DNA of 64,000 nt from Loxodes magnus (Eukaryota; Ciliophora; Karyorelictea; Loxodida; Loxodidae): positions 558,001 through 622,000 of the forward strand of contig CAMPDV010000006.1 in assembly GCA_946699065.1 (NCBI GenBank), read 5' to 3'. This document shows positions 1 to 64,000 of the stretch, piece after piece. The notes beneath the pieces were generated by a model. That model saw only the letters and a program-made list of their open reading frames with translations. It was not told the origin of the DNA and did not search any database. A program made the translations under genes and the position numbers. The first letter of the stretch is position 1; every line of letters starts with the position of its first letter.

Positions 1-3000
1 TCTTCGTTTCTTTTACTTATAGTATAATGTGATTTAGTTTTCTATGTAAATCCTTGCCCTAGTTCTGTTACTTATGGACATGCATGCAATTAGAATGGCT
101 TTTCTGATGGTTCTGTTCAGCGCCCTTATTATAGTCTAATTGAAGCTTTAAACTTAAGAATCAACTCTTGTTTAAGTGATAAATGTGTCTTTAAACTAGG
201 GAATGGATAGCACTTCTTATATACTGGCTCGCCCATAGATTAAGGATTTAAGACTTAAGGGAGCTACTTAAAATCTCCACTAACTACACTAAGTTAATCT
301 GGAGAGATAAATATAGAAGGCGAGGGAGATGGGACAATAATCTATTATTGAGAGTAATCAATTAGCTTTAGATTTATGGAAGGAACAGTTTCCTTTAGCA
401 ACTTACAACTAAATGGCTACAAAACAATCGAAAGAGCTATTTTTCAAGACATAACGAAAGCTAACTTTAATACTTAATTTTCATGCTAAGATGTTTGGTG
501 CTCTCATTGTAATAATCGAGACTCAATGATATGTTACGATTCTTCAACTCAGACTATAGAAAATGTTAGATCAATAAATCGATGCAAGTATTAAGTTCTA
601 ACTAGCTATGGAGAAAATTTGAATCAGCCAGCAATGAAGTAAAAATAAGCAACTAGACTCTAATGAAGTATTGATATAAATTATTGTGAAGCTACATTTT
701 TTGATTCTGTTATATTTGATGTTGATGGCTAAGCAAACTAAAGACCATAACTAATAATAGGAAATGTTACTTTCTCAGGTTTTAAATTTCGTCCTCCAGC
801 AATCATAAGAATAAACAATGGAAGGCTTACACTTTAAAATGTTACGTTTATTGATTCGGAAATAGGTCATCCACTTGCCGGCACATAATATAGTCAAGAT
901 GAAGCACATGGAATAATCTATTCAAAGAAGAGAGTTACTTCAAATGGCACTTCAATAAAATGGCACTATGGAGGAGTTTAAGAAACAAATAAGCATATGG
1001 CTTATAGCCAAACTTCTAAAACAATGTACTCAGTTCTTTAATTATATTCGCCTCAACTCGTAGACTTTTCGAACCTTGTATTCAAAAATAACTTCTGGCC
1101 TCAACAAAATTGCCCTGAATGCGATCACTAGGTAGGAGCTATAGACTTGATGTGAATTTAAGAAGTTTACATAAGAAAGACCTTATTTCAAAATAACTTG
1201 GCTCCTTATGGAGCTCTTCATGTAGAGAGTAGATATTAGCAAGAGCCTATACTATTAATCTATGAAAGCGACTTTATAGGTAACTCTGGATATAAAACTA
1301 ACACTTTTAATATTTCAAGTGCATTAGCCTAGACTTTCTCTATAACAATAAGCAAATCTACTTTTACAAATAGCTTCGGCTACTCATATACTAACGCGTA
1401 AATAAACATACCTTATAGATCAGATTGCTGTGGCTATCTTTCCATAATCAAGAGTACTTTCTAAAAAAACTAGCCTTGGACTTAGTATGTGCAAAAAGGA
1501 AATGCTGGCCTTTAAATTATACATAATGATATTCTAATTTCAGGAAGTATATTTGAGGAAAATAGCTATGCTAAGAACAAATAAACTTAAAGTTTAGGCG
1601 TTCATACTTCATAAGTATAGCTAGGCTTTATTTAAGTTCCTATCTTAGCAGTTTCTGAAGATTTACTGAAGGTAAACTTTTACCCTTATTACTATATTAA
1701 TTTCAATGAATATGACTTAAGCTAAGTATAAACCAATTTAATAGTTTAGTCATGCTACAGAGCTTTAATAGAAGATACTGAGTTTAATAAGAATGAAGTA
1801 TACCAAGCAGCGGGAATTTAAGTGAGCATTGCATAAGAGTATTTGCAAATTCTTCGCTGCGAATTTACTAATCTGTAAGCTTATAAAAACAACGCAGTAG
1901 TAGCAACCAGTCCATGAATTTAAATCTTGTAATCAAATTTTAAAAACCTAAATACTATAAAGAAAAATGGAGCGTTGTACATACAAAGCCCTAAGAGCAA
2001 CTATAAAAACACATGCATATAGTAAAATTAAGATAAGCGATGTCTAAAATACTACATAGAATAATATTTCTGGTTTGAACTTTCTTCAAGTACATTCGAA
2101 AACATAAACTCAGGAGGATCTTCTACAGTCCTTTACCTTCAAACTTCATATTCTAAAAAAGCAAATAGTTACTAGTATTAAATGATTATGGAAGATGTTA
2201 CTATAAAAGAAAGCTCCATTCAAGTAACTGACGAAAGAGAAGCTGCTCTCTATTTGAAAGTAACGAAGGGAAATTTCTATATTAAAGATTCTAATTTTTA
2301 AGAATCTAAATCAGGTAGAGACTAGAAATCAACGGGAACATGCTTTTTGTTTGCCGATATTGCTAAAGGAAGTGAAATTATAGTTAAAAATACTAATTTT
2401 TTAAATTGTGCAGGTTCATAAATGATTTACAATAGAAACAACAAAGGAACTCTAACAACTTAGGAATGCATGTTTATGAACTAAGATAAGAATTATGCTA
2501 GTGGAGCTATATGAAATGCAGGAGATTATTATGATATTTCTTCAACATTTTAATAACTTAAAAAGGACATAGGGCCTGTATATTATAGCTAAACCTAAGG
2601 AACAGCTTCTTTTTACTAATCAATTTTTACTTAAAACGAAGCTACTTTGTGAGGAGTAGTTTATGTTAGCTAGTAAGGTGTTTAGCTTTTTATGGATAAA
2701 GTAAGTTTCATAAGCAATCAAGCATTTTACTATGGTGGAGGGATATATGGAGATAGAAAAGCTAAAGTATCCGTTTCTCGAAGCGAATTTTCCTATAATA
2801 AAGCTTATGATGGTTTTGCTCTTCTCCTTGCATTTACAAAAGCAGGATAAAACGAACAAACTTCATATAGAACAACTATAGATGATTGCAACTTTTATAG
2901 AAACGGTATGCTAAAGAATGATCAAACCGAAAATTTAGGAAATTAATCAACAATAGGAGCAATAGAAGCAGAAATAATAATAATGAATAGTAAATTTGTT

Positions 3001-6000
3001 GAGAATAAAGCAAAAATCAGTCCAGGAATCAAAGTAATATTTTCCGATATTTCAAGCTAAAATCTATTCTTTTCCGGGAATGAAGGAGGGTAAGGATGTT
3101 GCATTTCACTAATTTATGACTGCTAATGGAAAGATAAAAATTCTATTTATTAGCATAATAACTGCAGTTAAGGAGGAGTGGTATATGCTTAGAACTCCCA
3201 AGTTTAAATATCATAAGCAACGTATGAAAACAATAATGCATTACAAGGGGGCACGTTTTTCCTGGATTAAGATACTGAATTATCTATAGAATATTCTGAT
3301 ATACTTAGTTCGTTTGCTATAGTAAATGGAGCTCTAATGTACTTACAAAAGACGTTAAAAATTTCTATAAAATATTGCAAATTTAAAAACTGAAGGAGTA
3401 ATGGAATTTTTCTACTAAGAGGTTAGGATCAAATTATAATAAATCAAACAACGTTTGAAAATGGAGAAAATAATGGCAAAGGTACTTAGTTTGTAGATGG
3501 CTATGGAGGTGCAATTGCAATACTGAGCTCATATAGAGATTTGATAATTTTTAATTGTACATTTCAAAATATAAAAAGTAAGATAGGAGGATGTATAGCT
3601 GCCTAGAATGAAATTGGATATCTCAAAACCAATTTTAAAGTTTTAATAGCGTAGTCTACATTCTAAGAATGCGTAGCTGAATAAGCAGGAGCTCTTTATT
3701 TAGAAAGGGTTATATTTCTAATAAACGATACAGTTTTCGTTAAGAATCAAGCAATTGCAAAAGAATAAGCAAGTGGAGATGGAATAAATTAAGAATATGG
3801 TAAAGGAGGAGCTATCTTTCCTATTTGTGACATGGATCAAGTAAAGTAACTTGGCTATAAAGCTTGCTACTAGATAAATAAAAGTGTCTTTAAGTAAAAC
3901 TATGCTAGTCATTCAGGAGGTGCAATAGTTTGATACGATAAGTATGATCTCTTTTACATTAGTTACGATACATTGTTCTCTGAAAATAAAGCTCAGTATG
4001 CACCTGATATAACAGGTTTTGCTATTATGCTTGAACTACTTTCAACAGCTCCGAAAGAAATTTCTTTGCAAACAACATGATCTCTAAAAGGAAAGGATCT
4101 TACCTGAGGAGATTACTTAGTATAAAGATTTATCAATAATGCAAAAATAGGAAATTTTAAAGTTAGACGATTATAAACAGCGAGCAATGGTACATCTGGT
4201 TAGCAACAAATATGAAAAAAGAATCTTAAAAACATAGGAAGTGGCCATGTAACTTAAATACCAATAGTGGCTGCTTATAAAGATATGTGAGGGTTTGTAG
4301 TATCAACAGATGATAAATCAATGTGTGAATTAGGTGTTGCAAATACGACAAATTCAATAATTAAAGGCCATACAAATAGATAGGCAAAAAGAGGGATTGT
4401 AATATGGGATAATTATGAAATAACAGCGGAACCAAAAACTTAAGCTCAGTTAAATATTAAAGCAGCGGTATTTGCAGATCCTATCACTCAAATGAGCTAA
4501 GATGACGTATTAATCATGTTTTCAGAAGTGAGTAATCAAATATAGCAAGCTCTTGATGAAAATAGTTAGGAGTTTGAAGAAATTTAGGAAACTTCTAATT
4601 AATAACAAGGCTAGTAAGAAGAGAGTGAGGATAGCAAAGGTTTTGATTTTTCTGAAGAATATTAATAAATCGAAGAAAGTGAAGAAGAATAAAATTAAAA
4701 CTCTGAAAAGCCAGAAGAAAAAAGTGAAGAGAGCTAGATTTAAGAAATTCAAGAATAAGAAGAAAATGATTAAAGTGAAAATAATTAGAACAGCACTAAT
4801 AATTTAGAAGATAACAATTAGGAGTAAGAAAATTAGTAGGAAGATAATAGTTATTAAGAAAATAACCAAGGTATAAATGATTAAGATTAGATAGACAACG
4901 ATGAATAAAATGATTATGATTAGATAGACAACGATGAATAAAATGATTATGATTAAAATGATTATGATTAAAATGATAATAGTGATGATAATTCTGATGT
5001 AGTAGATGTAGAATGTACATCAGGATGCTATTACAATTATTTAGGTGATGGATATTGTGATTATAATTGTAATAATGAAATCTGCCTTTATGATTAAGGA
5101 GATTGTGAAATTTCCGTTGAAGACTGCTCTTTAGGATGCACGTATGATTTACTAGGAAATGGAAATTGCGATGATGTTTGTAATGTTGAAGCCTGCTATT
5201 CAGATTATGGAGATTGCGAACAAAACGTAGAATAATGTAATGCTGATTGCTACAATGAATATCTGGGCGATGGATAATGTGATTAATCTTGCAATGTTTG
5301 GCAATGTAATTTCGACCAAGGAGATTGTAACGATTAAAATTAATTTCTTGAATGCTCTCCGGGTTGTCTATTTGAATATCTTTCAGATGGATATTGCAAT
5401 AGTGAATGCAATGTAATTGAATGTTATTATGATTACGGAGATTGCTAGTGTGCAACTGGTTGCTATTAAGAATACCTTGGAGATGGATATTGTAATCCAG
5501 AATGCAATGTAATAGAATGCTAGTTTGATTATGGTGATTGTGAATCCTTATGCGCTACAGGATGCTATTAAGATTATATTGGGGATGGAATATGTAATAT
5601 TGAGTGTAATGTAGTGGAATGCGAGTATGATTATGGAGATTGCTAGTGTACATTTGATTGCTATGAAGAGTTACTAGGAAACGGAGTCTGCAATGAAGAA
5701 TGTAATGTAGTTGAATGCTTCTATGATAACGGAGATTGTCAATGTGCACCAGGATGCTAAGCAGAATTTCTTGCAAACCAATATTGCAATAATTAATGTA
5801 ACGTAATCGAATGCTGGTATGATTATGGTGATTGTGAATGTTCACCAGGCTGTAACTTTTGGTCACTTGGAAATGGAGTTTGTGATAGTTAATGCAACGA
5901 AATTTAATGCGAATATGATTATTATGATTGTGATCCTCCATGTGCTCCAGGTTGTTCCCTAGACTTATTGTAAAATGGAATATGTGAAATTTAATGTAAT

Positions 6001-9000
6001 GTAGCAGATTGCTATAACGATTATGGTGACTGTGATCCACTTTGTGCAGTAGGTTGTACAAACGATTTGCTAAATAATGATGTTTGTGACCCAGAATGCA
6101 ATGTTACGAATTGTTATTATGACGAAGGAGACTGTGATTGTGCTCTTGATTGCTCTAATGATATGAAAGGAGATGGAAATTGTGACCCAGAATGCAATGT
6201 TACGAATTGTTTTTATGATGAAGGAGACTGTGATTGTGCTCTTGGTTGTTCTAATAATATGTTAGGTGATTTAAACTGCGACACAGAATGCAATGTTACG
6301 AATTGTTATTATGACGAAGGAGACTGTGATTGTGCTCTTGGTTGTTCTAATAATATGTTAGGTGATTTAAACTGCGACACAGAATGCAATGTTACGAATT
6401 GTTATTATGACGAAGGAGACTGTGATTGTGCTCTTGGTTGTTCTAATAATATGTTAGGTGATTTAAACTGCGACACAGAATGCAATGTTACGAATTGTTA
6501 TTATGACGAAGGAGACTGTGATTGTGCTCTTGGTTGTTCTAATAATATGTTAGGTGATTTAAACTGCGACACAGAATGCAATGTTACGAATTGTTATTAT
6601 GACGAAGGAGACTGTGATTGTGCTCTTGGTTGTTCTAATAATATGTTAGGTGATTTAAACTGCGACACAGAATGCAATGTTACGAATTGTTATTATGACG
6701 AAGGAGACTGTGATTGTGCTCTTGGTTGTTCTAATAATATGTTAGGTGATTTAAACTGCGACACAGAATGCAATGTTACGAATTGTTATTATGACGAAGG
6801 AGACTGTGATTGTGCTCTTGATTGCTCTAATGATATGAAAGGAGATGGAAATTGCGACACAGACTGTAATGTAACTGAGTGTGGTTTCGATTCAAATGAC
6901 TGCCTAAGTAGATAACTTTAACTTGAGAATTAGAAAAAAGTTAGTAGAGAGCTGGGAAAATTATTTTCTATTAATAGTTCTAAAAGATAAATACAAATTA
7001 ATGAAGACTATGATATTAATAGCTTTATCAAATCATTTAATTAGAGTAACTGGTATTAATTAACCCATGCTAATAATCATTTTTAGAGACAGCTGGCAGA
7101 ACCAATTCAGCCAAGAATTTAAGGAAACATATTAATATTTTCATAGATGAGAAATTGCTTAAAAGGAGAGTATCTTAAATTTATAAATAGTATTAGTGAA
7201 TGTCCAGTGTGCTCTTCAAATTCTTACTCTTTAACTAATGACACATATTTCTGCAAGGAATGTCCAGAAGAAGCTGATTATTGTAGTGATGGATGAAAGA
7301 TTTGACTTAAAGAAGGGTATTGAAGAAAAACAAACATGACGAGTGAAATTCATAAATGCCCAAGAAAATCTTCATGTCTAGGAGGAAATAACAAAACTAA
7401 TTTAACAGGAGCTTGTGATATTGGCTATACTGGAAATTTATGTGGGTCATGTATTGATTAATACAGTAGAACAGGTGCTTATTTTATTTGTGCTTAATGT
7501 CCAGAGTCTTGGAAAAATTCTCTCTTACTGTTAATTTTGGATATAGCAGTTTTTACTTATACATTAATAATAGTTAAAAATACTATTGCAGATGCTATTA
7601 TCATTGGAAGATCGCTAAAAGCAGCTTATATGAGAATTTTAACCAACTATATTTAGTTAGTATCTTTTATGGCTGCCTTTCAACTTTAGTGGCCTAGCTA
7701 TGTCAAAAAATATTTAGAAGTCTAAGAAAAATCCTCCGAAGCTCCCAAATAAATAGTTTCTTTTGATTGTTTTTTGAAAGAAAATTCTGGAGATTTGAAT
7801 AGCTTTTATGGAAAGATTATTCTATTTTCTTTATTACCTTTTTCCTATATAATAGTGCCTTTTATATTTTGGTATATAATCTCTATCATTAAGAATAATA
7901 TAAAGTACTTGCGCTAATAGTGTGTCGCCTCTATCATAGTTCTGATATATATTGCTCATCCTTAGATTGTCAAAGTAATGCTTGAACCTCTCACCTGTGT
8001 TGAAATTGAAGGAAAGCATTATGTATAAGTTGAACCCGATCTTGAGTGCTGGGTAGGAGATCATTTGGTGGTTACCCTCATTTTTGCAATTCCAGGTTTA
8101 ATAATTTGAGGCCTTTGCATACCAGCCTTGATAATGCTAAATATAAAAAAGTAGAAAGCAAAATGTACAGAATATGAGATAATGGCAACATATGGATTCC
8201 TATTTATAGGATATAGGAAAGAAACTTGGTTCTGAGAATGCATTACAATCTACAAGAAGATACTTATTGTATTTATCTAAGTTTTCCTATCTTCCTCAAA
8301 TTAAATCTCAGGACTAACAGTAATGGTATTGATATTCTTCATCATATACTTATAGTAGAAATATCAACCATACCGTACTGATGAATTGAATAAGCTTGAG
8401 ATAATATCCCTCATTGCAAGTGGAGCTACTATTTATTGTGGACTTTTCTATATGACAGAGGATCTTAGCGAAGGTGCATAGGTAGTCTTCTTTTTAATTA
8501 TCATTCTTTCATCTGTATGGTTCTTATATCAATGGACTCTCAAGACTTTCTTCGTTTATTAGAGACATTTTATCTCTAAATTTCTAAAATCCAAACCTCA
8601 GCTTATTTTCAAAATTTAAGACAAGCTTAGAAAGAATTTCTGTAGATATTGGGCGTTGAATATTGATAAAGCGATAAATTATTAGCTTTATGATAACATT
8701 GATTACCTAATTGAGGATGTAGCTCTGTTTTAGAAACAATTAGGTAATGATTCATAAGAGTCTGAGGATTAAGAAAGAATACCAAAAGGCAAAGCTAAAG
8801 TGAATTAAAATGACCTTACTTAAGAATACTCTTAGCTTAAAGTTCCCTTTAGTAATGACAAATTGCTTTTTGTCTAATAGCCTAATCGAATTTCTTTCTA
8901 GCTACATCAAATTTAAACTACTTAGGATATTAATTTTTAGGACCTGACTACAGATCATTAGAAGCATTCAGATAATTCTAGCTCAACAAAGAAAGAAGAA

Positions 9001-20815: not shown

Positions 20816-23800
20816 TCATGTATCTTGTTCCTGCATTAGTTCTTTTTCTTCTTCCACTTCTGATAGAGCCAATTCTTAGTTTTAAATCTACTAATCACTT
20901 CTGCTTCTATTCTATGCTTAGCTTTGGTAAAAGTTTGTGGTTTCCTATTAGATTTGAAATATCGTTTCAGGATAGATCTTAAAACCAGAGCTTTAATTTT
21001 AATAACTAATTTCTATGATAGTTTAAGGCTGATTTGGAAACTATTGAAGAAGAACCTGATAAGATTAATAATTAGGTAGCTGCTAAGATTACACGTTAAT
21101 TAATCTTGGTTATGAAAATTCTTATTTTTACTCATAAGGGTCTTTCTTTTTGCCATCAGGGTTCTAAGAATTATCTTATGGAATATACTATTAGATATTA
21201 AATTACTTTGAAAACATAGCTAAGTCATCAGTAATTTCGTTTATATTATCTAGAAGCAAATTATTCATTGCTTTATCAATATTTACAGCTCAGCATGTGC
21301 AGCAATTCTTTCTAAGCTTTTCCTATAACTTGAAAATAATTTTAGGCTTTGATTTTAGAAACTTTTTTAATAAGTCCTTCTAATAAACGAAGTAAGTTTT
21401 AATTATCCACAATCATAAAAATCAAGCAGATGAAACTAAGATAAATATGAAGAAGACAATCTCAGCACCTTCGGTTAGATCATCTGTCATATAGTACAAT
21501 CCGCAAAAGATTGTAACACCACTTGTAATGAGAGATATCATCTCAAGTTTATTCAAATCATCAGTACGGTATGGTTGGTATTTCTACTATAAGTAAATAA
21601 TGAAGAATATCAGTAACATAACAGTAAGTCCTGATAAATCATTTGAAAATTGTAAGAAGACTTATATAAATACAATAAATATCTTCCTATAGATAGTAAT
21701 GCATTCCCAGTACCAAGTTTTACTTTTATATCCTATAAATAAAAATCCATATGTTGCAAATATCTCATAGTCTGATTTTTTAGCCTTTTAGGATTTTATT
21801 TATAGCATAATTAAAAATGGAATACACAAACCTCAGACTATTAATGCTGGTAGCGCAAATACATATGCTATCACTTTGTGATCTCCGGCCCAGCATTCAA
21901 GATCTGGCTCGACTTACACATAATGCTTTCCTTAAATTTCTATACAAGTAAGAGGCTAAAGCATTATTTTCACTATTTAAGGATGAGCTATATAAACTAA
22001 AATGATGATAGTTGCAATACATTGCTGGTGAAGGTATTTTTTATTGTGCTTTATGATTGAATAAATATACCAACATATAAAAGGAACGATTATATATGAA
22101 ATGGGAAGCACTGAAAATAGAATAATTTTCCTATAAAAGCTGTTTAAATTACCTTCGTGATCTCTCAAAAAGCAATCGAATGATACTATTTACTTAGGTG
22201 CTTCAGATGACTTTTCTTAGACGTTCAAAAATTTACCGACATAACTAGGCCATTGAAGTTGGAAAGTAGCCATGAAAGATACTAGCTAGATGTAGTTAGT
22301 TAAGATTCGCATATAAGCGGCCTTTAGAGACCTACCAATAGTAATAGCATCTTACATAGTATTTTTAACTATAATTAAAGTGTAAACAAATATTGCTAGT
22401 GCTAGAGCGAGAAGTAAAAGAGCATTTTTTCAAGAATCTGGACATTCAGCACAAATGAAATTAGATCCTGTTTTACTATATCCTACTTCACAAGAACCAC
22501 ATAAATTTCCAGTATAACCTATTTTGCAAGCTCCAGTTAAACTTTTCATTTTATTATTTCCTTTGCACGATGATTTCCTAGGACATTCATGAATCTCATT
22601 TGTCATATTTGTTTTTCTTCAATAACCTTCTTTAAGTCAAATTTTTCAACCCTCATTACATTTTTCAGCTTCTTCAGGACATTCTTTACATAATCTTGTG
22701 CCATTTATTAACGAATAAGTATTTGAAGAGCATGTTGGACATTCAGTAATGTTGTTAGATCTAAAAACATACTCACCCAGTTGGCAAGTTCTCATCTAAG
22801 AGAAAATTAAAATATTTGATTAGATAGTTGATTATATTTTTTCTTCCAATTGTCTTGAAAAATGATTATTTTAAAGAATCAATTAATAATAATTCGTTTA
22901 GCTAAAAATAAGCTGTAAATCATTAGGCCTTTTGCTTATTGTAACAGATTCTTAATTTTTAATGAAACTATCATAGAAAACATGTCTTAGTTCTCGATAA
23001 GTATTTTCTCTATCCTCAAGACTAAGTTCTCTAATTATTACACAATCATTAAAATCGAAATTACACTCAGTTACATTACATTCTGTGTCGCAGTTTAAAT
23101 TGCCTAACATATCATTAAAACAACCAAGAGCACATTCGCAATCTCCATTATCATAAAAACAATTCGTAACATTGCATACTGAGTCACAATTTCCATCTCC
23201 TATTATATAATAAGAACAATTAGTTGCACAATCACAATCTCCATAATCATAAAAACAATTCGCATCATTGCATGCATAATCACAATTTCCATTTCCCTTC
23301 ATTTAATTAGAACAGCCAAGAGCACAATCACAATCTCCATAATCATAATAACAATTTGTAACATTGCACTCAGAGTTACAAATTCTATTTCCTAATGTAC
23401 TATATACACAGCCAGGAGCACATGTATAGCATAAGTAATTATCATAATAGCAATTAATGTTGTTGCATTATGAGTCACAAACATCATTATTTAGCAAATC
23501 GTTTGTACAACCTACTGCACAAAGTGGATCACAGTCACCATAATCGTTATAGCAATCTTCTACATTACATTAAATTTCACATATTCCATTTTACAATAAG
23601 TCTAGGGAACAACCCGGAGCACATGGAGGATCACAATCATAATAATCATATTCGCATTAAATTTCGTTGCATTAACTATCACAAACTCCATTTCCAAGTG
23701 ACCAAAAGTTACAGCCTGGTGAACATTCACAATCACCATAATCATACCAGCATTCGATTACGTTACATTCATTATTGCAATATTGATCTGCAAGAAATTC

Positions 23801-26800
23801 TGCTTAGCATCCTGGTGCACATTGACAATCTCCATTATCATAGAAGCATTCAACTACATTACATTCTTCATTGCAGACTCCGTTTCCAAGTAACTCTTCA
23901 TAGCAATTAAATGTACACTAGCAATCTCCATAATCATACTCGCATTCCACTACATTACACTCAGTATTACATATTCCATCCCCAATATAATCTTAATAAC
24001 ATCCTGTAGCGCATAAGGATTCACAATCACCATAATCAAACTAGCATTCTATTACATTGCATTCTGGATTACAATATCCATCTCCAAGGTATTCTTAATA
24101 GCAACCAGTTGCACACTAGCAATCTCCGTAATCATAATAACATTCAATTACATTGCATTCACTATTGCAATATCCATCTGAAAGATATTCGAATAGGCAA
24201 CCCGGAGAGCATTCATATATTTAACTTAAGTCACCACAATCTCCTTGGTCGAAATTACATTGCCAAACATTGCATGATTAATCACAATATCCATCGCCCA
24301 GATATTCACTGTAGCAATCAGCATTACATTATTCTACGTTTTATTCACAATCTCCATAATCTGAATAACAGGCTTCAACATTACAAACATCATCGCAATT
24401 TCCATTTCCTAGTAAATCATATGTACATCCTTCAGAGCAATCTTCACTATATATTTCACAATCTCCAAAATCATAATAGCATACATCATTATTACAATTA
24501 AAATCGCAATATCCATCACCTAAATAATTGAAATAACACCCAGGTGAGCATGTAACGTCTTATGAATCAGAACTATCATAACTTTAGTCACTATAATAAT
24601 TGTAATCACTTTAGTCTTAATCATATTAGCCATCGTAATCTTAATACCCATCATTATCCAATTAGTCTTAATCAACAGTTTCTTAGTTATAATTATCATA
24701 ATCATAGCTATCTTAATCATAATTGTCATTACTATAACCATCATAATCGTAGTAATCTTAATCATTATTGCTTTGATCGTTTGAATCTTAATCATATTAA
24801 TCTTGATCTTAAGTTTCTTCACCAGTTTCTTCTTCTTCTTCTTCTTCTTCTTCCTCTTGTCCTTATTCTTGCTCTTATTCTTATTCTTCTTATTAATTTT
24901 CTTCTTCCCCATTGACTTCATTACTATCATCAGGTAAATAAAAATTTTGAGAAAAATTGAAATTTGTTCTTTCTTCGGTTTCTTATTATTCTTGTTGCTC
25001 ATTTTATTAATTTTAATTCTACTTAATTTCCACAAGTTAATCGCTATTTTCATCTATCGCTTTTTAAATTTCATTATTAACTTCAGAAAACATGAATAAA
25101 ACATCATCATAATTCATTTAAGTGATGGGATCCTCAAATACAGATGCTTGAATATTTAACTGAGCCTCTGTATCAGGATTAGCTGATATTTCATATTCAT
25201 CCCACATAATAATTCCTCTTTTTGCTTATTTAGTTGTATCTCCTTTTATTTAAGAAATATATGGATCTTTTACTTTTAATTCACATATTGATTTATCATC
25301 TGTTGAAACAATGAAGCCTCACATGTCTTTGTAAGCAACTATTATTTATTATTTGGTTTTTTTACCACTCCCAACGTTTTCTAGGTTCTTTTTCCATTAT
25401 TATTGCTCTTTTTATGTGGCATTGCTGACTTCTTATAAACGCCTTAACTTAATATTTCCTATTTTTGCATTGTTAACGAATCTTTCTACCAAATAATCTC
25501 CATATGTTAGATCCTTTCCTTTTAGAGAATAAGTAGTTTGAATACTGGTTGGATCAGGCTCTGATGAAATTAATTCAAGCATAATGGCAAAGCCTGTAAT
25601 ATCTGGTGCATATAGAGCTTTATTTTCTGAGAATATTGTATCACTACTAATGTAATATTAATCTTTTTAATTATACCAAACGATTGCTCCTCCAGAGCGA
25701 TTTGCAAAATTTTACTTAAAGACACTTTTAATTATTTAGTAGCAATTTTTATATCCATATCCCAAAACCTGATCCATGTCGCAAATTGGAAAAATCGCCC
25801 CTCCTCTGCCATAATCTGCATCCACTGAGATCATCTTTTATTTTTTTACTGAATTAGCTTAATTTTATATGAAAACTACTTCATTTACTACAAAAATAAC
25901 TCTGTCGAAGAAAAGAGCTCCAGCTTTCTCAGCTTAGCACTTCTTGAAAGTAGACTATGAAATCAATACTTTGAATTCTGTTTACAGAAATCCTTTTTCG
26001 TTCTAAGCAGCAATACATCCTCCTATCTAGCTGACTATGTTTTCAAAAGAGCAATTGAAAATTATTACATCTTGGTACGAGTTTTATAATGCAATAGCTC
26101 CTCCATATCCATCAGTAAACTAAGAACCCTCACCATAATTAGTCCCATCTTCGAATAATGTTTGATTTATAATCATTTAACCCTTTCCCTATGATAGAAA
26201 TATTCCATTTCTTTATCAATCTTTAAAGCTACAAAAAATGATCGAGATAAGTCCAGTTTTTTGGAAATAAAAAAGAGCTCCCAGATTTGTTGCTTGTGAT
26301 TAGATTATATCTGAGCTAGTTATTGACAACTGTGCATCTTTATCAAGATAGAAAGCGCCCCCTGTTTAGGCGGTATTATTTTCGTATTTCGATGAGGTTA
26401 TCGTAATTTATGAGTCTTATGCATATACAACTCCTCCTTAAACGCAAACGTTATTTTTATAAATTGAATTCTAATCTTTTCATACACTCCCAAAAGCAAG
26501 GAAAAAGCAGCATCCTTAATAACCTTCATTTTTTTCGAAGTATAAGTTATAGCTTGAAATATCGGAAAAAATTGCTTTGACTCCTGGACTGGTTTTTGCT
26601 TTATTCTCAACAAATTTACTATTCACTATTATTATTTCTGCTTCTATTACTCCTAGAGTTGATTAGTTTCCTTGATTTTCGGTTTGATCATTCTTTAGCA
26701 TACCATTTCTATAAAAGTTGCAATCATCTATAGTTGTTCTATACGAAGCTTGTTCATTTTATCCTGCTTTAGTAAATGCAAGGAGAAGAGCAAAACCGTC

Positions 26801-29638
26801 ATTAGCTTTATTATAAGAAAATTCGCTTCGAGAAACGGATACTTTAGCTTTTCTTTCTGCATATATCCCTCCACCATAATAAAATGCTTGATTGCTTATG
26901 AAACTTACTTTATCCATAAAAAGCTAAACACCTTACTAGCTAGCATAAACTACTCCTCACAAAGTAGCTTCGTTTTAAGTAAAAATTGATTAGTAAAAGG
27001 AAGCTGTTCCTGTAGTTTAGCTATAATATACTGGACCTATGTCCTTTTTAAGTTATTAAAATGTTGAAGAAATATCATAATAATCTCCTGCATTTCATAT
27101 AGCTCCACTAGCATAATTCTTATCTTAGTTCATAAACACGCATTCCTAAGTCGTAAGAGTTCCTTTATTGTTTCTATTGTAAATCATTTATGAGCCTGCA
27201 CAATTACTGAAAGCAGAATTTTTTATGAAAATTTGACTTCCTTTATTAATGTCAGAAAACAAAAAGCAAGTTCCTAATGGATCCTAATCTCTACCTGATT
27301 TAGATTCTTAAAAATTACAATCTTTAATATAGAAATTTCCCTTCGTTACTTTCAAATAGAGAGCAGCTTCTCTTTCGTCAGTCACTTGAATGGAGCTTTC
27401 TTTTATAGTAACATCTTCCATAATCATTTAATACTAGTAACTATTTGCTTTTTTAGAATATGAAGTTTGAAGGTAAAGGACTGTAGAAGATCCTCCTGAG
27501 TTTATGTTTTCGAATGAACTTGCAGTAAGTTCAAACCAGAAATATTACTCTATTAGGTATTTGAGACATTTATCATCTTAATTTTACTATATGCATGTGT
27601 TTTTATAGTTGCTCTTAGGGCTTTGTATGTACAACGCTCCATTTTTCTTTATAGTATTTAGGTTTTTAAAATTTGATTACAAGATTTAAATTCATGGACT
27701 GGTTGCTACTACTGCGTTGTTTTTATAAGCTTACAGATTAGTAAATTCGCAGCGAAGAATTTGCAAATACTCTTATGCAATGCTCACTTAAATTCCCGCT
27801 GCTTGGTATACTTCATTCTTATTAAACTCAGTATCTTCTATTAAAGCTCTGTAGCATGACTAAACTATTAAATTGGTTTATACTTAGCTTAAGTCATATT
27901 CATTGAAATTAATATAGTAATAAGGGTAAAAGTTTACCTTCAGTAAATCTTCAGAAACTGCTAAGATAGGAACTTAAATAAAGCCTAGCTATACTTATGA
28001 AGTATGAACGCCTAAACTTTAAGTTTATTCGTTCTTAGCATAGCTATTTTCCTCAAATATACTTCCTGAAATTAGAATATCATTATGTATAATTTAAAGA
28101 CCAGCATTTCCTTTTTGCACATACTAAGTCCAAGGCTAGTTTTTTTAGAAAGTACTCTTGATTATGGAAAGATAGCCACAGCAATCTGATCTATAAGGTA
28201 TGTTTATTTACGCGTTAGTATATGAGTAGCCAAAGCTATTTGTAAAAGTAGATTTGCTTATTGTTATAGAGAAAGTCTAGGCTAATGCACTTGAAATATT
28301 AAAAGTGTTAGTTTTATATCCAGAGTTACCTATAAAGTCGCTTTCATAGATTAATAGTATAGGCTCTTGCTAATATCTACTCTCTACATGAAGAGCTCCA
28401 TAAGGAGCCAAGTTATTTTGAAATAAGGTCTTTCTTATGTAAACTTCTTAAATTCACATCAAGTCTATAGCTCCTACTTAGTGATCGCATTCAGGGCAAT
28501 TTTGTTGAGGCCAGAAGTTATTTTTGAATACAAGGTTCGAAAAGTCTATGAGTTGAGGCGAATATAATTAAAGAACTGAGTACATTGTTTTAGAAGTTTG
28601 GCTATAAGCCATATGCTTATTTGTTTCTTAAACTCCTCCATAGTGCCATTTTATTGAAGTGCCATTTGAAGTAACTCTCTTCTTTGAATAGATTATTCCA
28701 TGTGCTTCATCTTGACTATATTATGTGCCGGCAAGTGGATGACCTATTTCTGAATCAATAAACGTAACATTTTAAAGTGTAAGCCTTCCATTGTTTATTC
28801 TTATGATTGCTGGAGGACGAAATTTAAAACCTGAGAAAGTAACATTTTCTATTATTAGTTATGGTCTTTAGTTTGCTTAGCCATCAACATCAAATATAAC
28901 AGAATCAAAAAATGTAGCTTCACAATAATTTATATCAATACTTCATTAGAGTCTAGTTGCTTATTTTTACTTCATTGCTGGCTGATTCAAATTTTCTCCA
29001 TAGCTAGTTAGAACTTAATACTTGCATCGATTTATTGATCTAACATTTTCTATGGTCTGAGTTGAAGAATCGTAACATATCATTGAGTCTCGATTATTAC
29101 AATGAGAGCACCAAACATCTTAGCATGAAAATTAAGTATTAAAGTTAGCTTTCGTTATGTCTTGAAAAATAACTCTTTCGATTGTTTTGTAGCCATTTAG
29201 TTGTAAGTTGCTAAAGGAAACTGTTCCTTCCATAAATCTAAAGCTAATTGATTACTCTCAATAATAGATTATTGTCCCATCTCCCTCGCCTTCTATATTT
29301 ATCTCTCCAGATTAACTTAGTGTAGTTAGTGGAGATTTTAAGTAGCTCCCTTAAGTCTTAAATCCTTAATCTATGGGCGAGCCAGTATATAAGAAGTGCT
29401 ATCCATTCCCTAGTTTAAAGACACATTTATCACTTAAACAAGAGTTGATTCTTAAGTTTAAAGCTTCAATTAGACTATAATAAGGGAGCTGAACAGAACC
29501 ATCAGAAAAGCCATTCTAATTACATGTATGTCCATAAGTAACAGAACTAGGGCAAGAATTTACATAGAAAACTTAATCGCATTCCACTAATTGGATTAGT
29601 AACGGAAAAATAAAAGCAGATAGAGCTATAAATTTCAT
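20816..29638 (-). CDS. Giant LNR / beta-helix membrane receptor, copy 2 (complete)
   Basis: Start ATG at 29638 (complement) opens a clear signal peptide, MKFIALSAFIFPLLIQLVEC. The stop is TGA at 20816-20818. The length is 8,823 nt (2,940 codons), an exact multiple of three, so no intron is needed. Order: signal peptide; about 1,450-residue parallel beta-helix-like ectodomain; acidic linker with a run of Glu encoded by GAA triplets (about 24530-25060); 15 LNR modules (about 23040-24560); Cys-rich stretch; several membrane spans (about 21370-22450); cytosolic Gln/Ser-rich tail. Relative to copy 1 the 5' part is nearly identical in DNA, the acidic linker and last LNR modules differ, and the C-terminal tail cannot be aligned by eye. 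Further in-frame TGAs follow the proposed stop within about 20 codons, as expected just past a real 3' end. Likely a surface sensor or adhesin; ligand unknown. Confidence 0.88.
23040..24565 (-). repeat. Array of 15 LNR modules in copy 2
   Basis: Fifteen six-Cys LNR modules. The first ten match modules 1-10 of copy 1 almost residue for residue. Modules 11-15 are diverged and one (ending DNYLC) lacks the usual GDC end. The identical 96-bp array of copy 1 is absent. Confidence 0.8.
24819..24855. repeat. (CTT)n trinucleotide run
   Basis: A run of CTT triplets, read on the minus strand as consecutive GAA Glu codons in the acidic linker of the copy 2 receptor. It is a coding microsatellite and likely length-variable. 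Confidence 0.9.
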
Positions 29639-39080: not shown

Positions 39081-40022
39081 TGGACTAAAAGTTGACTTAA
39101 TAGTTTACATTTTTATAATAATATCTTAAATCAAATATAATATCCCTGTTATGTATATAACACACTTAATTTTTTATTTATACTACTATTAGTTATTTAA
39201 ATCTTAAGAGAAGATAAGAAATTATTGAGTTTCTTTTATCAATATAAATTACTAAAATACATCTGAAACCCATTACCAACTATTTAAATCAATATCTAAT
39301 TACAACAAAAATAAAAATTTGCGTCAATTTTACTAAATGGATATGCTTTATTAAATGAACACTATCTTATTATTTTTAATGATTTGCTTTAATTTAAATC
39401 TTTATACTTTCTTCAAATATATTAATTTATCATAATTAAGAATTTCATATCTAGATTCTCATTTTGATATTACGATTCTTTGTTTCTTAGCACACAATTA
39501 AAATTTTATTACCTAAATAGTTAGGAGCCTTAGATGAAAAAATAATCCTTAGATTATATCTATTAATACTTATTTCCTTAATATAATTAGCTTCCTGTTT
39601 TATACTTAACTTAACCTTTAACTACTTTCATTAAATAGCATGATTTTAATTTCTAAGAAAATTCCATTAAGATATGGATATTTACTACTAGCCTTATTTT
39701 ATTAGAATATTTCTTTATTTGCTGTTCTAATTAAAGCTAAGTCAGCTTCCTTGTTATTTATATAGGATTATTAGTCTCTTGTTCTTCACTATATCTAATA
39801 TAGACTGATTATACTTTATGCTTATTTTGCTTAATTAGAACATTTGCTCTTGTACTATAAGAGTGACTTTTCCATTATATTAATTGATGAATTTTCGAGT
39901 TAATAAACTTTAGTTAAAATGAGTATAATTAAGTATTGAAAGTGGTTAGACTTGAACATTTATCAAGGAATTTAAGATTTTAAGTTTTAGCTTTTAATAA
40001 TTATTTAAATTAAAAATTAAGA
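39081..40022. other. AT-rich intergenic region
   Basis: 3' flank of the kinase gene and of the tRNA. Nothing recognised except the T-run noted with the tRNA. Confidence 0.5.
40014..40019 (-). terminator. Pol III T-run after tRNA-Glu
   Basis: A short run of T on the transcribed minus strand just downstream of the tRNA 3' end, in the usual position of a Pol III terminator. Confidence 0.5.
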
Positions 40023-40094
40023 TTCCCCATCCTTAGCTTGAACACAGATCTTTCGGATGAGAGCCGAATATCCTAACCACTAGACTAATGCGGA
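40023..40094 (-). tRNA. tRNA-Glu (anticodon CTC)
   Basis: 72 nt. D-arm sequence GTCTAGTGGTTAGGAT (A box) is the hallmark of eukaryotic tRNA-Glu. The anticodon stem TTCGG/CCGAA closes a CTCTCAT loop with anticodon CTC, and the T loop is TTCAAGC. The 3' CCA is not encoded. A T5 run, a Pol III terminator, follows within about 10 nt. Oddities: one acceptor mismatch (G:G) and a G:A pair in the T stem, so a slightly degenerate or edited gene cannot be excluded. Confidence 0.8.
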
Positions 40095-40299
40095 CTTACT
40101 TATTGATTTATAAAAAGTATAAAAAGGTTTCAAGCATATTAAGAGTATTAGCTGATTGAATAAATAAAGATATCTTAATAGAAATAAGTTAAAGTTATTT
40201 GATTCTTAAGATAATTTAAAGTAAATAGTTTAAGAGAACCTTTTATATAACTATGATATAGCTACCTCTATTTATAGTTCTAGGATTTCAGAATGTAAA

Positions 40300-50802: not shown

Positions 50803-51501
50803 TTGATTATTAAACTAAATACCTTTAAACTTATTCCTTAATCTTATGTCTTTTTTATAAATCATATCATAGCTTCTTTGAGAAAGAAATGCTAGAAATC
50901 AATTATATAAATAAACCCAAAAATTTGAGAAGGAAATTTTGACAAAAAGTGACGGATAAAAGTTTCAATAATTTTAGGTGCTATTTGAATGGTAAGGAAT
51001 AAAAGCTTAGACAGGTTTATAATCCTAAATGTATAAATTAGTTAAAAGTTAATCGAATTACAATATCAGTTTTAATAGCTAAAGATAATTTCTAAGCAGA
51101 AAATATTATATTAGAAAGTATTATTTTATTCTTTAGCCTTGCTTTTATTAGTCCTATATTAAACATCTTCCTAGAATGCTCAAATAAAGGAATTTAAAGA
51201 GTGGAGTTTAGATAAAGATATAACTTAAATTATTATTTTTCTCTTTAAAAAGATAAGCTAGGATTGGATCTTTAGATAGAGATGTCTATTTGGGAAAAAT
51301 TTGCACTAAGACGAAATAAAATAACCAAAGCTCATATATTATTTTCTGTAGTTATGCCTATAATTTTCTATCATACTCTAGTTTTATATTTTTAACTAAA
51401 ATATTAATTGAAGCTTTGCTAATAATAGTAGCACAGATATAAAAAGAAATAAGGGTATATATATTAAGTTTTATACTCAGATAGTTATATTATTTTTTTT
51501 A

Positions 51502-52275
51502 ATGGTTCCTAAGAAATAATCGAATAAAAACTAACAGGACATTGATTAATAAAACTTTCTAATCGATATATACTCCCTAGGAGCTGAGAATACAAAATTG
51601 CAACAATCACTTCTAGACTTAATTTAACGACTAGATTCTCTAACTTTTACTGTGCAACAACTACAAAATGAAAATCAATGACTAAAAATGGAAATCAGCA
51701 CTAAAACATCCAATTCTTAACTTATCTAATAACTGGAAAAAACAGAGTTAAAACTTAAAGATAATAACAAGCAAAATAATTCTGAATAGCTTATTGCTCC
51801 TCATAATGTTCCTATGGTAGTGGAATAGCAGTATTCCAAAAATTTTTCTAATCGGAAAAAATATTAAAATGTCAAAAATTAGGACGTATCTCAAAAAAAT
51901 GCACAATAAGATGCTTCTTTTGTTAAAGAAATGGACATATATTTAAAAACTGCTGGTACTTTTAGAGAAAAAAGAAATAAACAAGTCAAAGGTTATGAAA
52001 TGACATGTCTAAGTTATATTGTTCCCTAGAAGGAATACTTTATAAGAAAAAGGCATATGGCGGAGATTAATTACTATATGATATAGTAAACGCACAAAAA
52101 AGAAGAGAGAGATAAATGTTTGAACCTAATTGAGACTGAAACAAGGTTCCTACTGTCAAGAAGGGATAAATTAGCTTGAGTCGATACGTGATAGAAGAAT
52201 GCGAGTCTAGTAATTCGAGAGAAGAATGGAGCGACCCCATGAGCATTTGAGAAAACTTATAAACTGATTCTGTGA
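51502..52275 (+). CDS. Coiled-coil protein of a dispersed repeat, copy 1
   Basis: From ATG 51502 a frame runs at least to TGA 52177 and at most to TGA 52273-52275 (225-257 residues; which in-phase TGA stops is unclear). The N-terminal half has leucine heptads (LLDLIQRLDSLTFTVQQLQ); the C-terminal half is Lys/Arg-rich with aromatic residues. A diverged copy lies 3.2 kb downstream in the same orientation, so this is probably the protein of a repeated, perhaps mobile, element. No RT, transposase or other enzyme is seen nearby. Function unknown. Confidence 0.55.
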
Positions 52276-52614: not shown

Positions 52615-52931
52615 AATTAATTAATTAATTTCAACTTAAAGAGTTTTGGACTGCAACTTCTTGCAGTTTAACGATCTCAACACTCCCTTCATGGGATAAC
52701 GGGGATATCCTGTTGCTTTCGAAAAGCCGTTGCCAGAGAGCTCCATGCTATGGGCAGCCAGACTTCAAGACCCTGCCAGGAGTGGATAATCAAAAGGAAG
52801 GCGTTCCATTCAGAAAATGACTCTGACCAGGGACTTTCTCAGCGACAGGAAAGGAACTTGTTCCTAGCCATAAAACCAGAAAGTATTATCACGAAGGTCA
52901 TTCTCAGCTCCTACCATCTTTTCAATTATAT
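52615..52931 (+). repeat. Structured dispersed repeat, copy 1 (about 320 bp)
   Basis: Begins after an AATTAATTAATTAATT tract and ends at CAATTATAT, the same borders as copy 2 at 62602-62923. It is GC-richer than its flanks. Hairpins: 52651-52666 (CTGCAA/TTGCAG), 52715-52727 (GCTTT/AAAGC), 52852-52865 (AGGAAC/GTTCCT). The first two have different sequences but the same pairing in copy 2. A short open frame (52750 onward) is probably incidental. Likely a structured RNA or SINE-like element; orientation is arbitrary. Confidence 0.75.
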
Positions 52932-54689: not shown

Positions 54690-55460
54690 GAAGAACTAGC
54701 AGGATATCGACTAATAAAACTCGCTAATTTGAAATTTACTCCTTTGAAGCAGCAAATTTCACAACTTTAACAATAATTCTAAGACTTAAATTAACGAATC
54801 AATTCTTTAACCTATACTATACAACAACTATAAAATGAAAGCCAATTATTAAAAACGGAAATTAACATTAAGGATTCAATGTCGCAAGTTAATTAAGAAA
54901 TGGAAAAAAAGGAGTAAAAAATAGAAGAAATGAATAAGCCGAGCAATTAGGCTTAAATCCTTTCCCATCAAAATTCTAATAACGATGTAAGGTAATTGAA
55001 GAACAGAACGAAAAAACTCTTTCGAATTGGAAAAAAATTTTAAAATTATCTCAAATAGGTTATAACTCAAAGAATTGTAAAACAAGATATTTCTATTGTT
55101 AGAAAATTGTATATATTTTTAGAAGAAACGAGAATTAAATATATAAAAGATATTAAATAATATGACTAAATTATACTGCTCTCCAGAAGGAAAAATATAC
55201 AAAAAAAAGATATGTAATGAAGACTAATTACTATTAGATATAGTAAATGCTCAAAAAAGATGAATAGAATGAATGTATAATCCAAACTGAGATTGGAGCA
55301 AGATTCCTGTGGCCGGGAAGGTTAAATATGCACAAGCCGTAACGCAATAGAATAAATTAGCTCTGAAGAAGATTGTAATGATTCTATGATCCTATGAAAC
55401 AATCAAATCATCTCATAACATGACTTATAAATTTATTAGTGATAAGCCTAATAATGGGAA
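54690..55460 (+). pseudogene. Decayed copy of the 51.5-kb coiled-coil ORF
   Basis: Alignable by eye with 51490-52300 over most of its length, including the leucine-heptad region (LNQRINSLTYTIQQLQNE) and flanking non-coding sequence. It has accumulated many substitutions and looks broken. Its presence shows that the 51.5-kb unit is a dispersed repeat. Confidence 0.6.
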
Positions 55461-57184: not shown

Positions 57185-57213
57185 TAAATAAATAAATAAA
57201 TAAATAAATAAAT
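57185..57213. repeat. (TAAA)n microsatellite
   Basis: About seven TAAA units directly beside the hairpin tail at 57214-57256. Read on the minus strand it is a TTTA-type 3' tail, as carried by some LINE and SINE copies. Confidence 0.9.
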
Positions 57214-57271
57214 TTGATTATAGAGCGCGTAGCACTCTCGTTGGTGCGCAGCTCTTTAAAAAAAAATGTTT

Positions 57272-57380
57272 CATACTGACAAGAATGTTTGTTACTGATA
57301 AAATTATCAGATACTGATAAACCTTGTTCAATACTGGAATAATTATTCAGTATTGATAAAAACGTTCAATACTGATATAA
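57272..57380. repeat. Six short ACTGATA-type repeats
   Basis: Variants of TACTGATAAA recur about every 18-22 bp (near 57273, 57293, 57312, 57331, 57350 and 57369). Alternating copies could pair with TATCAG-type inversions. Function unknown. Confidence 0.7.
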
Positions 57381-57452
57381 TTTTAGAATACTTGTAATCT
57401 TTAATACTTGCTGGAGGTCCAAGGACATGGCAGGATTGTGTCTCATTGCATC

Positions 57453-57662
57453 ACCAAAGCAAAGGACGACATGTGTCAATTATGGGTACTTAAATTCCCC
57501 ACCTCAGATGAATCTCGCAATATTATTTCTTTTTAGTTCCAGAATTAAAAATAAACGAAGCCAGTGCCGAAGGTCTAGGAATCTTATGTCTCGAGGCCAA
57601 ACCAAAGCAGAGGAAGACATAAAGTCGATTATGGGTACTTAACTTCCCCAACCTCTGGTGAA
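57453..57662. repeat. Tandem pair of structured 60-bp cores
   Basis: Cores at 57453-57511 and 57602-57662 are about 80% identical by eye and about 150 bp apart. Both contain ATGGGTACTTAA followed by TTCCCC, able to form a GGG/CCC hairpin, preceded by a GAC/GTC hairpin whose loop differs between copies. Confidence 0.7.
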
Positions 57663-62532: not shown

Positions 62533-62601
62533 CTATTTAAAATAAAAATTTATTAAATGTTTTATTCTTAATAAAAATGTAACAGAAAACAAGGAAAAAC
62601 A

Positions 62602-62923
62602 AATTAATTAATTAATTTCAACTATAAAAGTTTTTGGACCGGAAACTCCTTTCCGATTGCACGATCCGACACTCTCTTTTTATGGAATAACGGGGATATC
62701 CTGTTGTGCTCCAGGCACAGCTGCTAGGGAGCTCCATCGCTATGAACAGCCAGGCTTCAAGCCCCTACAAAGAGCGGATAATCTCAAAGACAGTGTTCTA
62801 TTCAGAAAATGACTCTGACCAGGGACTTTCTCAGCGACATGAAAGGAACTTGTTCCTAGCCATAAAACCAGAAAGCGTTGTCACGAAGGTCATTCTCAGC
62901 TCCCACCATCTTTTCAATTATAT
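62602..62923 (+). repeat. Structured dispersed repeat, copy 2 (about 320 bp)
   Basis: Same borders as 52615-52931. The right half (from CAGAAAATGACTCTGACC) is nearly identical; the left half differs but keeps hairpins: 62640-62655 (CGGAAA/TTTCCG) and 62705-62719 (TGTGC/GCACA), in place of unrelated stems in copy 1. A short open frame (62706-62951) is not convincing as a gene. Confidence 0.75.
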
Positions 62924-63379
62924 CACTAGAAAAAACAAGTTAATTTCATGAAATTATTTAGCATTAATAATGATGCTGGAGACTTACAAAAAATAAATAA
63001 GTTTTTTTCTCTAGTTTAAAAATCTGCATATTTATATTAAAAAATAAATTGAACCATTAATAAACTTTTTTTAATTAAATTGATTAAAATACGTAAATAA
63101 AATTGCTGTATAATCAAGGTTAAAATTTTCTTTAATTATTTTTAAGTTCATAACTATAGTCATACAAAATATTTATATGGTTGAAGATTCATGAATATGA
63201 ATAAAAAATATTTGCTACTAATGGAACTTTCATCCCATTTCCACCGACCTCCATTGTCTGAAACTTAAATAGTTTAAATATATTTATGCATTATTTTTAA
63301 TCTTGACAATTTTCTTAAAGATTATTTCCTCCCGTTAATAGTTCTTTTTTTTTTCCTTTAGACATTTTCAAGGTTATTA

Positions 63380-63815
63380 TATATAATATAAAATGAATGT
63401 CGGCCAAGTCAGAAAAACTAGTAGGTAATCTGGTGCAGTGTATACTGCATTGCGAGTAATCTCGCACTATTTACCACCACGGAGATGGTGGATAAGCTCA
63501 GTTGAGACATGCCTAACTTACCCCGAGTGTTCTCTCTAGCAGTATGAAAGTTTAACTGTCGAGCCTTCTAATTAATATCTTAATAACTAATTCTTATTTG
63601 GACCTTATTCAAGAAGAATGGAGCATTTAATTCAAGATTCGAGAATAATCTTTAATAAGAAGATTCCCATTAGAGAAGATGAAGTGACTCTTTGGACGAA
63701 AAGAATAAAATTCAAGTTTTTGAGAACACTTTTTTTAATAATAAATATTAATAATGAAAGAGCTGCGCGTCAACGAGATGCTACGCGCTATATAATCATA
63801 TTTATTTATTATTTA
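63380..63815 (+). mobile_element. SINE-like structured element 2
   Basis: Body at about 63390-63570 contains a series of hairpins: 63435-63448 (GCAGT/ACTGC), 63451-63466 (TGCGAG/CTCGCA), 63474-63491 (CCACCA/TGGTGG), then an AAGCTCAGTTGAG segment resembling a Pol III A box. The 3' part (63752-63790) is the hairpin tail shared, inverted, with 57214-57256, followed by TTTATTTATT. No matching B box was found. Class is inferred. Confidence 0.45.
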
Positions 63816-64000
63816 TAGCAGAATTTTCATTTTATCCTCCTTTTACTTCACCAGTACTATCTTTTAAATTTTTTTGCTTCATTACTAAATTTGAAATAAT
63901 AAAGCATCTTTTACATAGTTTTTTGTCGAATTTAATCATAATTTTGTTTCTTCTTCTTTTTAAATTGAGGCCGAATTACTCCTATTTTTATTTTATCAGA
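63816..64000. other. AT-rich end of window
   Basis: Nothing recognised. Confidence 0.5.

Follow-up and report, generated by a model that had tools for sequence, protein, structure and literature searches.

SINEs are short (about 100 to 700 bp), non-coding, dispersed repeats of high copy number, and their defining feature is a head that goes back to a Pol III RNA (tRNA, 7SL, or 5S) with an internal promoter. The trypanosomatid elements RIME, NARTc/NAR, and SIDER are short non-autonomous LINE derivatives without clear Pol III boxes. For zebrafish LINEs, it has been described that the LINE protein binds a 3' stem-loop, the stem being recognized generally and the loop specifically (PMC4176376), and the sharing of 3' ends between LINEs and SINEs is a pattern known elsewhere, including eel UnaL2 (PMC5135761). 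Among ciliates, putative SINEs were annotated in the germline DNA of Paramecium tetraurelia from multi-copy non-coding consensus sequences and were reported to make up 0.04 to 0.53% of the genome compartments (PMC5405496). The genome paper on Loxodes magnus presents a macronuclear assembly of 706 Mbp and reports that the stop/sense code is ambiguous, that LINEs are abundant, and that most repeats are unclassified; the word SINE was not found in its main text, and the repeat described below may be listed in its supplement as an unclassified family (PMC11441545).

Here, we describe a short repeat of L. magnus from a 64,000-nt stretch of DNA that was analyzed as a whole and is referred to as the window. 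In our view, with a probability of roughly 0.8, this repeat is a SINE-like non-autonomous non-LTR retroposon, the RNA of which is copied in trans by the reverse transcriptase (RT) of a host LINE, with a 3' hairpin termed H1 as the likely handle. It resembles the stringent-type LINE/SINE pairs, as described for zebrafish ZfL2 (PMC4176376) and eel UnaL2 (PMC5135761), in being a short non-coding retroposon with target-site duplications and in carrying a 3' hairpin shortly before a short-repeat tail, with a stem that varies while pairing is kept and a loop that is steadier. It differs from these pairs in that neither a LINE sharing H1 nor a tRNA-type head was found, and in its ciliate host. With the putative SINEs of P. 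tetraurelia, it shares the status of a ciliate non-coding repeat that occurs alongside LINEs, which in Paramecium have tri- to pentanucleotide 3' repeats; the likeness is one of description (PMC5405496). The Loxodes repeat differs in that its ends, duplications, subfamilies, and hairpin covariation are documented. To the extent searched, within open-licence PMC main texts, the Loxodes family has no earlier description: neither a description of a SINE in Loxodes nor a joint account of a SINE stem-loop with compensatory change, covariation, and retrotransposition was found there.

An initial annotation had reported a dispersed repeat, two copies of which have exact common borders. Both copies were located (Table 1), and their identity is 83.6% across an alignment of 323 columns. 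In the assembly of 705,730,643 bases and 7,843 contigs, the pattern of the element core had 4,593 matches at no more than three mismatches and its reversed control none, so that neither copy is a chance occurrence. The pattern of the 5' head had 4,692 matches, again with none for the reversed control; these counts refer to pattern matches and not to full copies, and since the two are similar, 5' truncation seems to be uncommon. The common borders are exact because they mark where a mobile element of about 317 to 322 bp begins and ends. Its sense strand is the minus strand in both window copies, the half annotated as left being the 3' end of the element with a TTAA-type tail and the right half being the 5' head. 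The GC content of the element body is 44.5%, compared with 26.7% in the window. In 80 kb sampled at positions fixed beforehand, one partial and diverged copy was present.

Table 1. Positions of the repeat copies and their features within the window
Feature	Positions	Strand	Remarks
Copy A, SINE-like retroposon, mosaic	52615..52931	-	5' part (52811-52931) of beta type, 3' part (52615-52799) of alpha type
Copy B, beta subfamily, full length	62602..62923	-	
3' terminus and TTAA-repeat tail, copy A	52616..52633	-	TGAAATTAATTAATTAAT
3' terminus and TTAA-repeat tail, copy B	62602..62620	-	TGAAATTAATTAATTAATT
Target-site duplication of copy B, left arm	62595..62609	.	AAAAACAAATTAATT; 15 nt, 1 mismatch; merges with the tail
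Target-site duplication of copy B, right arm	62931..62945	.	AAAAACAAGTTAATT; locus L032
H1, 3' hairpin, copy A	52650..52667	-	ACTGCAA-GAAG-TTGCAGT (sense)
H1, copy B	62639..62656	-	TCGGAAA-GGAG-TTTCCGG (sense); compensatory relative to copy A
H2 hairpin, copy A	52714..52728	-	Sense GGCTTTTCGAAAGCA; stem GCTTT/AAAGC
H2 hairpin, copy B	62705..62719	-	Sense TGTGCCTGGAGCACA; stem TGTGC/GCACA
5'-region palindrome, copy A	52852..52865	-	AGGAAC-AA-GTTCCT (sense)
5'-region palindrome, copy B	62844..62857	-	AGGAAC-AA-GTTCCT; identical to copy A
Beta-to-alpha switch point, copy A	52800..52810	.	

The flanks of fetched loci contained three extra copies, namely, a full alpha-type copy and an internally deleted one at L039 and a fragment at L049. 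The version that lacks an internal part of the 5' body, found at L039 (contig C1810) and in five other places, matched the 258-base query over its full length in these 6 places at 95 to 100% identity and may represent either a mobile deletion subfamily or a segmental duplication. In an 18-mer scan of viral contigs, two contigs contained the 18-mer, without longer similarity.

Insertion marks of the retroposition type were observed. The aligned copies have sharp ends. On the 5' side they start with a AATTRAAAAGATGG-type sequence, and on the 3' side they end with a TTGAAATTAA-type sequence, followed by TTAA-type repeats that vary in length among copies. After removal of 15 duplicate insertions from the 60 best-match copies, 45 distinct insertion sites remained. 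Target-site duplications scored at least 12 at 33 of these 45 sites, in contrast to 14 of 540 mismatched flank pairs; they are 13 to 25 nt long among the above-threshold sites, and 12 sites fell under the threshold. Copy B is flanked by such a duplication, and for copy A a recognizable one was not found (score 8). Together with the tail, the high copy number, and the existence of subfamilies, the duplications bear out the suggestion of the initial annotation that this might be an RNA-based mobile element. A MITE or another short DNA transposon would likewise appear as a short, non-coding, high-copy repeat with sharp ends. However, the duplications are not of fixed length, no terminal inverted repeats were seen at the ends of the aligned copies, and the simple-sequence tail varies in length, which makes such an origin highly improbable.

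The copies fall into two subfamilies, alpha comprising the best matches to copy A and beta the best matches to copy B. Mean divergence from the consensus is 1.3% for alpha (28 copies) and 1.9% for beta (30 copies), both values being biased low by the best-match selection. Copy A (L001) is itself a mosaic. Across 54 diagnostic columns it reads bbbbbaabbbbbb and then alpha, with one column fitting neither state; it thus has the beta state at 11 of the 13 leading columns, and the same beta-to-alpha switch is present in another copy, L002, with beta at all 13. The joining of a beta 5' part to an alpha 3' part explains why the right half hardly differs from that of copy B. The near-invariance noted earlier for this half is therefore real as an observation, but it reflects a common beta 5' part and recent shared ancestry rather than constraint or selection.

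The alpha core has 1,370 matches in the genome, compared with 734 for the alpha 3' end. A separate 3' module carried by about half of the alpha copies was considered and rejected, as L096, the one copy of this sort that was retrieved, keeps the H1 hairpin and then continues into a diverged terminal stretch; divergence beyond three mismatches may explain the gap, one copy being thin evidence. Substitutions between alpha and beta are spread over the three codon phases as 17, 15, and 20, without sign of coding constraint. A coding explanation was rejected on this basis, in agreement with the earlier preference for folding over the short ORFs.

H1 lies about 20 nt upstream of the TTAA-type tail, the order being hairpin, short spacer, and tetranucleotide tail. 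Both stem exchanges quoted in the initial annotation are present in copies A and B (Table 1), that of H2 with a one-base offset between the copies; in a common register, four H2 pairs overlap, three of which are changed on both sides. Between alpha and beta, all seven pairs of H1 are kept through six substitutions in the arms and all five pairs of H2 likewise through six, for which random substitution of the arms gives chances of 0.0028 and 0.0075, respectively, for hairpins and registers that were picked by hand and after the fact. The palindrome in the 5' region is without covariation and hence neither supports nor opposes pairing.

Covariation was further assessed in alignments of 3' ends. 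The first, A1, comprised 64 of 78 3' ends, 14 near-duplicates being omitted. The second, A2, comprised 40 of the 64 A1 rows (39 distinct) and represents the beta lineage, including 16 diverged copies hand-picked from 43 genome matches; the 24 alpha-type rows were omitted, as MAFFT sets the alpha hairpin out of register. Over the 39 distinct rows, H1, H2, and a small terminal stem taken jointly had 95.4% of cells paired, compared with a shuffled mean of 93.8, and 13 doubly changed cells, where shuffles gave 5.8 and slid controls no more than 2. Each of these two values was reached in none of 500 shuffles, a statistic that ignores the relatedness of the rows. In the same test, the number of pairs with a double change (2) and that of further pair types (11) were not above shuffles. 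The informative pairs of this set are 79-94 in H1 (C-G in 24 rows, U-A in 7, U-G in 4, unpaired in 4) and 18-24 in H2 (C-G in 25 rows, U-A in 6, U-G in 2, unpaired in 6). For the beta lineage, RNAalifold predicted H1 unprompted and did not predict H2. Of the 40 beta-lineage rows, 36 have GGAG as the H1 loop; in the alpha rows, the loop reads GAAG in 23 of 24.

A structure-free scan of the whole element over at most 2,000 co-optimal alignments recovered H2 as the sole hairpin with at least two double changes and did not recover H1; in a control with a matched substitution spectrum, such a hairpin occurred once or more in 61 of 5,000 simulations. When the 3' region was re-aligned alone, again structure-free, at best 17 of the 18 H1 columns came into register. 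This 17-column register has six pairs with two double changes, corresponding to the 6-bp stem quoted earlier, and was obtained in roughly 29% of the co-optimal alignments; the four gap settings used gave 720 of 2,520, 780 of 2,730, 60 of 210, and 60 of 210. The outermost pair of H1 depends on the register. The earlier statement that covariation argues for selection on RNA folding is supported for H1, given its unprompted prediction by RNAalifold and the excess of doubly changed cells over shuffles and slid controls, and is weaker for H2.

Compensatory changes can also arise without selection. In quasipalindrome correction, one event alters both arms of a hairpin, and template switching of this kind in short imperfect hairpins during copying would fit the finding that more than one pair differs jointly between the two subfamilies; the mosaic copies, too, are compatible with strand transfer. 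The one-sided U-G pairs at 79-94 of H1 (four rows) and 18-24 of H2 (two rows), however, fit stepwise change, and we regard an origin of the paired changes by template switching as unlikely.

H1 alone folds better than shuffled sequences, with z-scores of -2.23 in copy B and -4.53 in copy A, and H2 alone does no better than shuffles in the two window copies (0.54 and -0.30). The whole RNA is not unusually stable relative to shuffles (-0.75 for copy B and -0.97 for the alpha copy L013), and the antisense of copy B gave -0.57. The signal of structure is therefore confined to the 3' hairpin. The minimum-energy fold lacks H1 for the whole copy B but contains it for both subfamily consensus sequences. 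Rfam has no above-threshold family inside the element, the sub-threshold matches having E-values of 0.41 to 5.8. A globally folded functional RNA is accordingly not supported and was set aside, and with it the proposal of an undescribed structured RNA in this sense. A family of host genes for a structured non-coding RNA, not mobile at all, would be in keeping with the covariation of H1. Such a family is at odds with thousands of dispersed copies, the sampled ones with target-site duplications, and with the lack of both a stable overall fold and a known RNA family; the insertion marks contradict it unless one copy was co-opted, and we consider it barely credible.

In its size and copy number, in substitutions that show no codon-phase bias, and in its variable target-site duplications and 3' simple-repeat tail, the element looks like a SINE. 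We nevertheless call it SINE-like, instead of a proven SINE, because a tRNA-type Pol III promoter was not found. The score of the best tRNA-type A/B box pair was matched in 344 of 500 and 370 of 500 shuffles and is thus not above chance, in a test that uses a generic consensus, which a lineage-specific promoter could escape. ARAGORN returned nothing in copies A and B, and a tRNA, 7SL, or 5S match was not found in the element with ARAGORN and Rfam. A less likely, tentative idea is that of a true SINE, the head of which would stem from a karyorelict Pol III structured RNA that has no Rfam family and a promoter not of the tRNA type. A GC-rich body inside an AT-rich genome, clear retroposition marks, and an Rfam result that is empty above threshold, as expected for an unsampled lineage, would all suit this idea. 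It is made doubtful by A/B boxes that do not exceed chance, by a whole RNA that is no more stable than shuffles, and by several TTTT runs on the sense strand, since such runs can terminate Pol III transcription. It is tempting, if rather speculative, to combine a head from a hitherto undescribed karyorelict structured RNA, other than tRNA, 7SL, or 5S, with master lineages in which the H1 stem drifts while a LINE protein reads the shape of the stem and the loop. If this were true, the co-evolution of an RNA and a protein would be naturally recorded in thousands of copies, and the mosaic masters would have arisen from template switching.

As to the preferred reading of a SINE-like retroposon copied by a LINE, LINE-type RT genes are abundant in this genome: there were 3,403 first-look candidates, and all of the 150 that were scored lay over the cut-off. 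The RT domains contain all three stop codons in frame. The abundant LINEs described in the genome paper could supply the reverse transcriptase (PMC11441545). On two contigs (C5131 and C20), RT domains occur in regular tandem arrays with a spacing of about 2.5 kb. The 3' sides of LINEs were sampled at four loci and then at two more. In L072 and L073, the 3' end consists of the hairpin GAGCTGCGC...GCGCTC and a TTTA tail, and in L074, L092, and L093, three copies of one LINE type, of CGTGGT...ACCACG and a TTAA/TTTA-type tail. The features common to the latter type and the repeat are the hairpin-before-tail layout and the TTAA/TTTA-type tail only. A LINE with an H1-like 3' end was not found among the six sampled loci, and when four LINE 3' regions were compared with the 3' end of the element, similarity did not go beyond the AT-rich tail in any of them.

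These observations bear on the possibility of an internally deleted LINE derivative, a short element composed of the two termini (5' and 3') of an autonomous LINE. Pol III boxes were not found, and the genome does contain LINEs with hairpin-plus-tail 3' ends, both in accordance with such an origin. However, the head has about as many matches as the core and is seemingly not common to thousands of LINE copies, and the four LINE 3' regions lack the end of the element, so that we judge this derivation improbable. The trypanosomatid RIME, NARTc, and SIDER elements are likewise short non-autonomous retroposons lacking clear Pol III boxes, but they share ends with their LINEs, whereas for the Loxodes repeat such sharing was seen only in the tail type.

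Two other short high-copy repeats were noticed in the window. One, at 63395-63820 on the plus strand, has an L072/L073-type hairpin and a TTTA-type tail, its 3' end being 89% identical to the L072 type over 64 bases (4,283 first-look candidates; 40 scored, at 86 to 100% identity). The other, at 57190-57660 on the minus strand, ends in an L072-type LINE hairpin and a TTTA tail, with 93.6% identity over 78 bases (1,844 first-look candidates; 40 scored, at 95 to 100% identity). With short repeats bearing the 3' hairpin and tail of a LINE, trans-mobilization via a 3' hairpin probably operates in this genome; the two repeats conform to the sharing of 3' ends by LINEs and SINEs described in other organisms (PMC5135761). 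The LINE-type hairpin itself shows compensatory variation between elements, for instance AGAGC..GCTCT versus AGTGC..GCACT (compared at L072 1396-1469, the L075 3' end, and window positions 57196-57273 and 63754-63816), which suggests the same recognition of stem shape.

Further similarities to LINE surroundings were seen in the window. The stretches 51457-52199 and 54879-55372 show a similarity of about 69 to 78% to sequence located downstream of the RT of the LINE at L075 and are possibly old remnants of another repeat. The region of a tRNA-Glu gene (40006-40098) is 80% similar to positions 3313-3409 of L074, downstream of the LINE, possibly as a result of dispersed tRNA copies. The longest frames of the window have 1,001 amino acids under table 6, with TAA and TAG as sense, compared with 306 under the standard code. 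A large inverted duplication of 89% identity pairs 26-4565 with 25044-29583 and 4931-6491 with 23070-24636. Its genes encode Notch/LNR-like cysteine repeats (96-bp units) and beta-helix-like parts, domains that were named by eye, and its long frames exist only if stop codons are read as sense.

According to the mechanism that we propose, a short minus-sense RNA of about 300 nt plus the TTAA-type tail would be transcribed from a few master copies and bound in trans by a host LINE protein. Reverse transcription into nicked AT-rich target DNA would then produce the duplications, mostly of 13 to 25 bp. The LINE protein would probably take hold of the RNA at H1, the stem of which is free to change as long as it pairs and the loop of which is near-constant as GGAG or GAAG, and compensatory changes would for this reason build up across successive master lineages. 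Copy A would descend from a mosaic master that joined the two subfamilies. Whereas the insertion marks, the subfamilies, the mosaicism, the covariation of H1, and the abundance of LINE-type RT genes are observed, we infer transcription, the choice of one LINE as the partner, and, since a LINE with the same hairpin was not found among those sampled, also the recognition of H1 by the LINE protein.

The repeat would account for part of the mostly unclassified repeats of L. magnus (PMC11441545). It would also illustrate, for a ciliate, how short non-coding elements depend on LINEs for their spread, probably via a 3' hairpin. Loxodes is reportedly without extensive genome editing, and such elements would thus be exposed in the active somatic genome. 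The many copies of differing age would offer a natural test of whether shape or sequence is under constraint in a hairpin recognized by a LINE.
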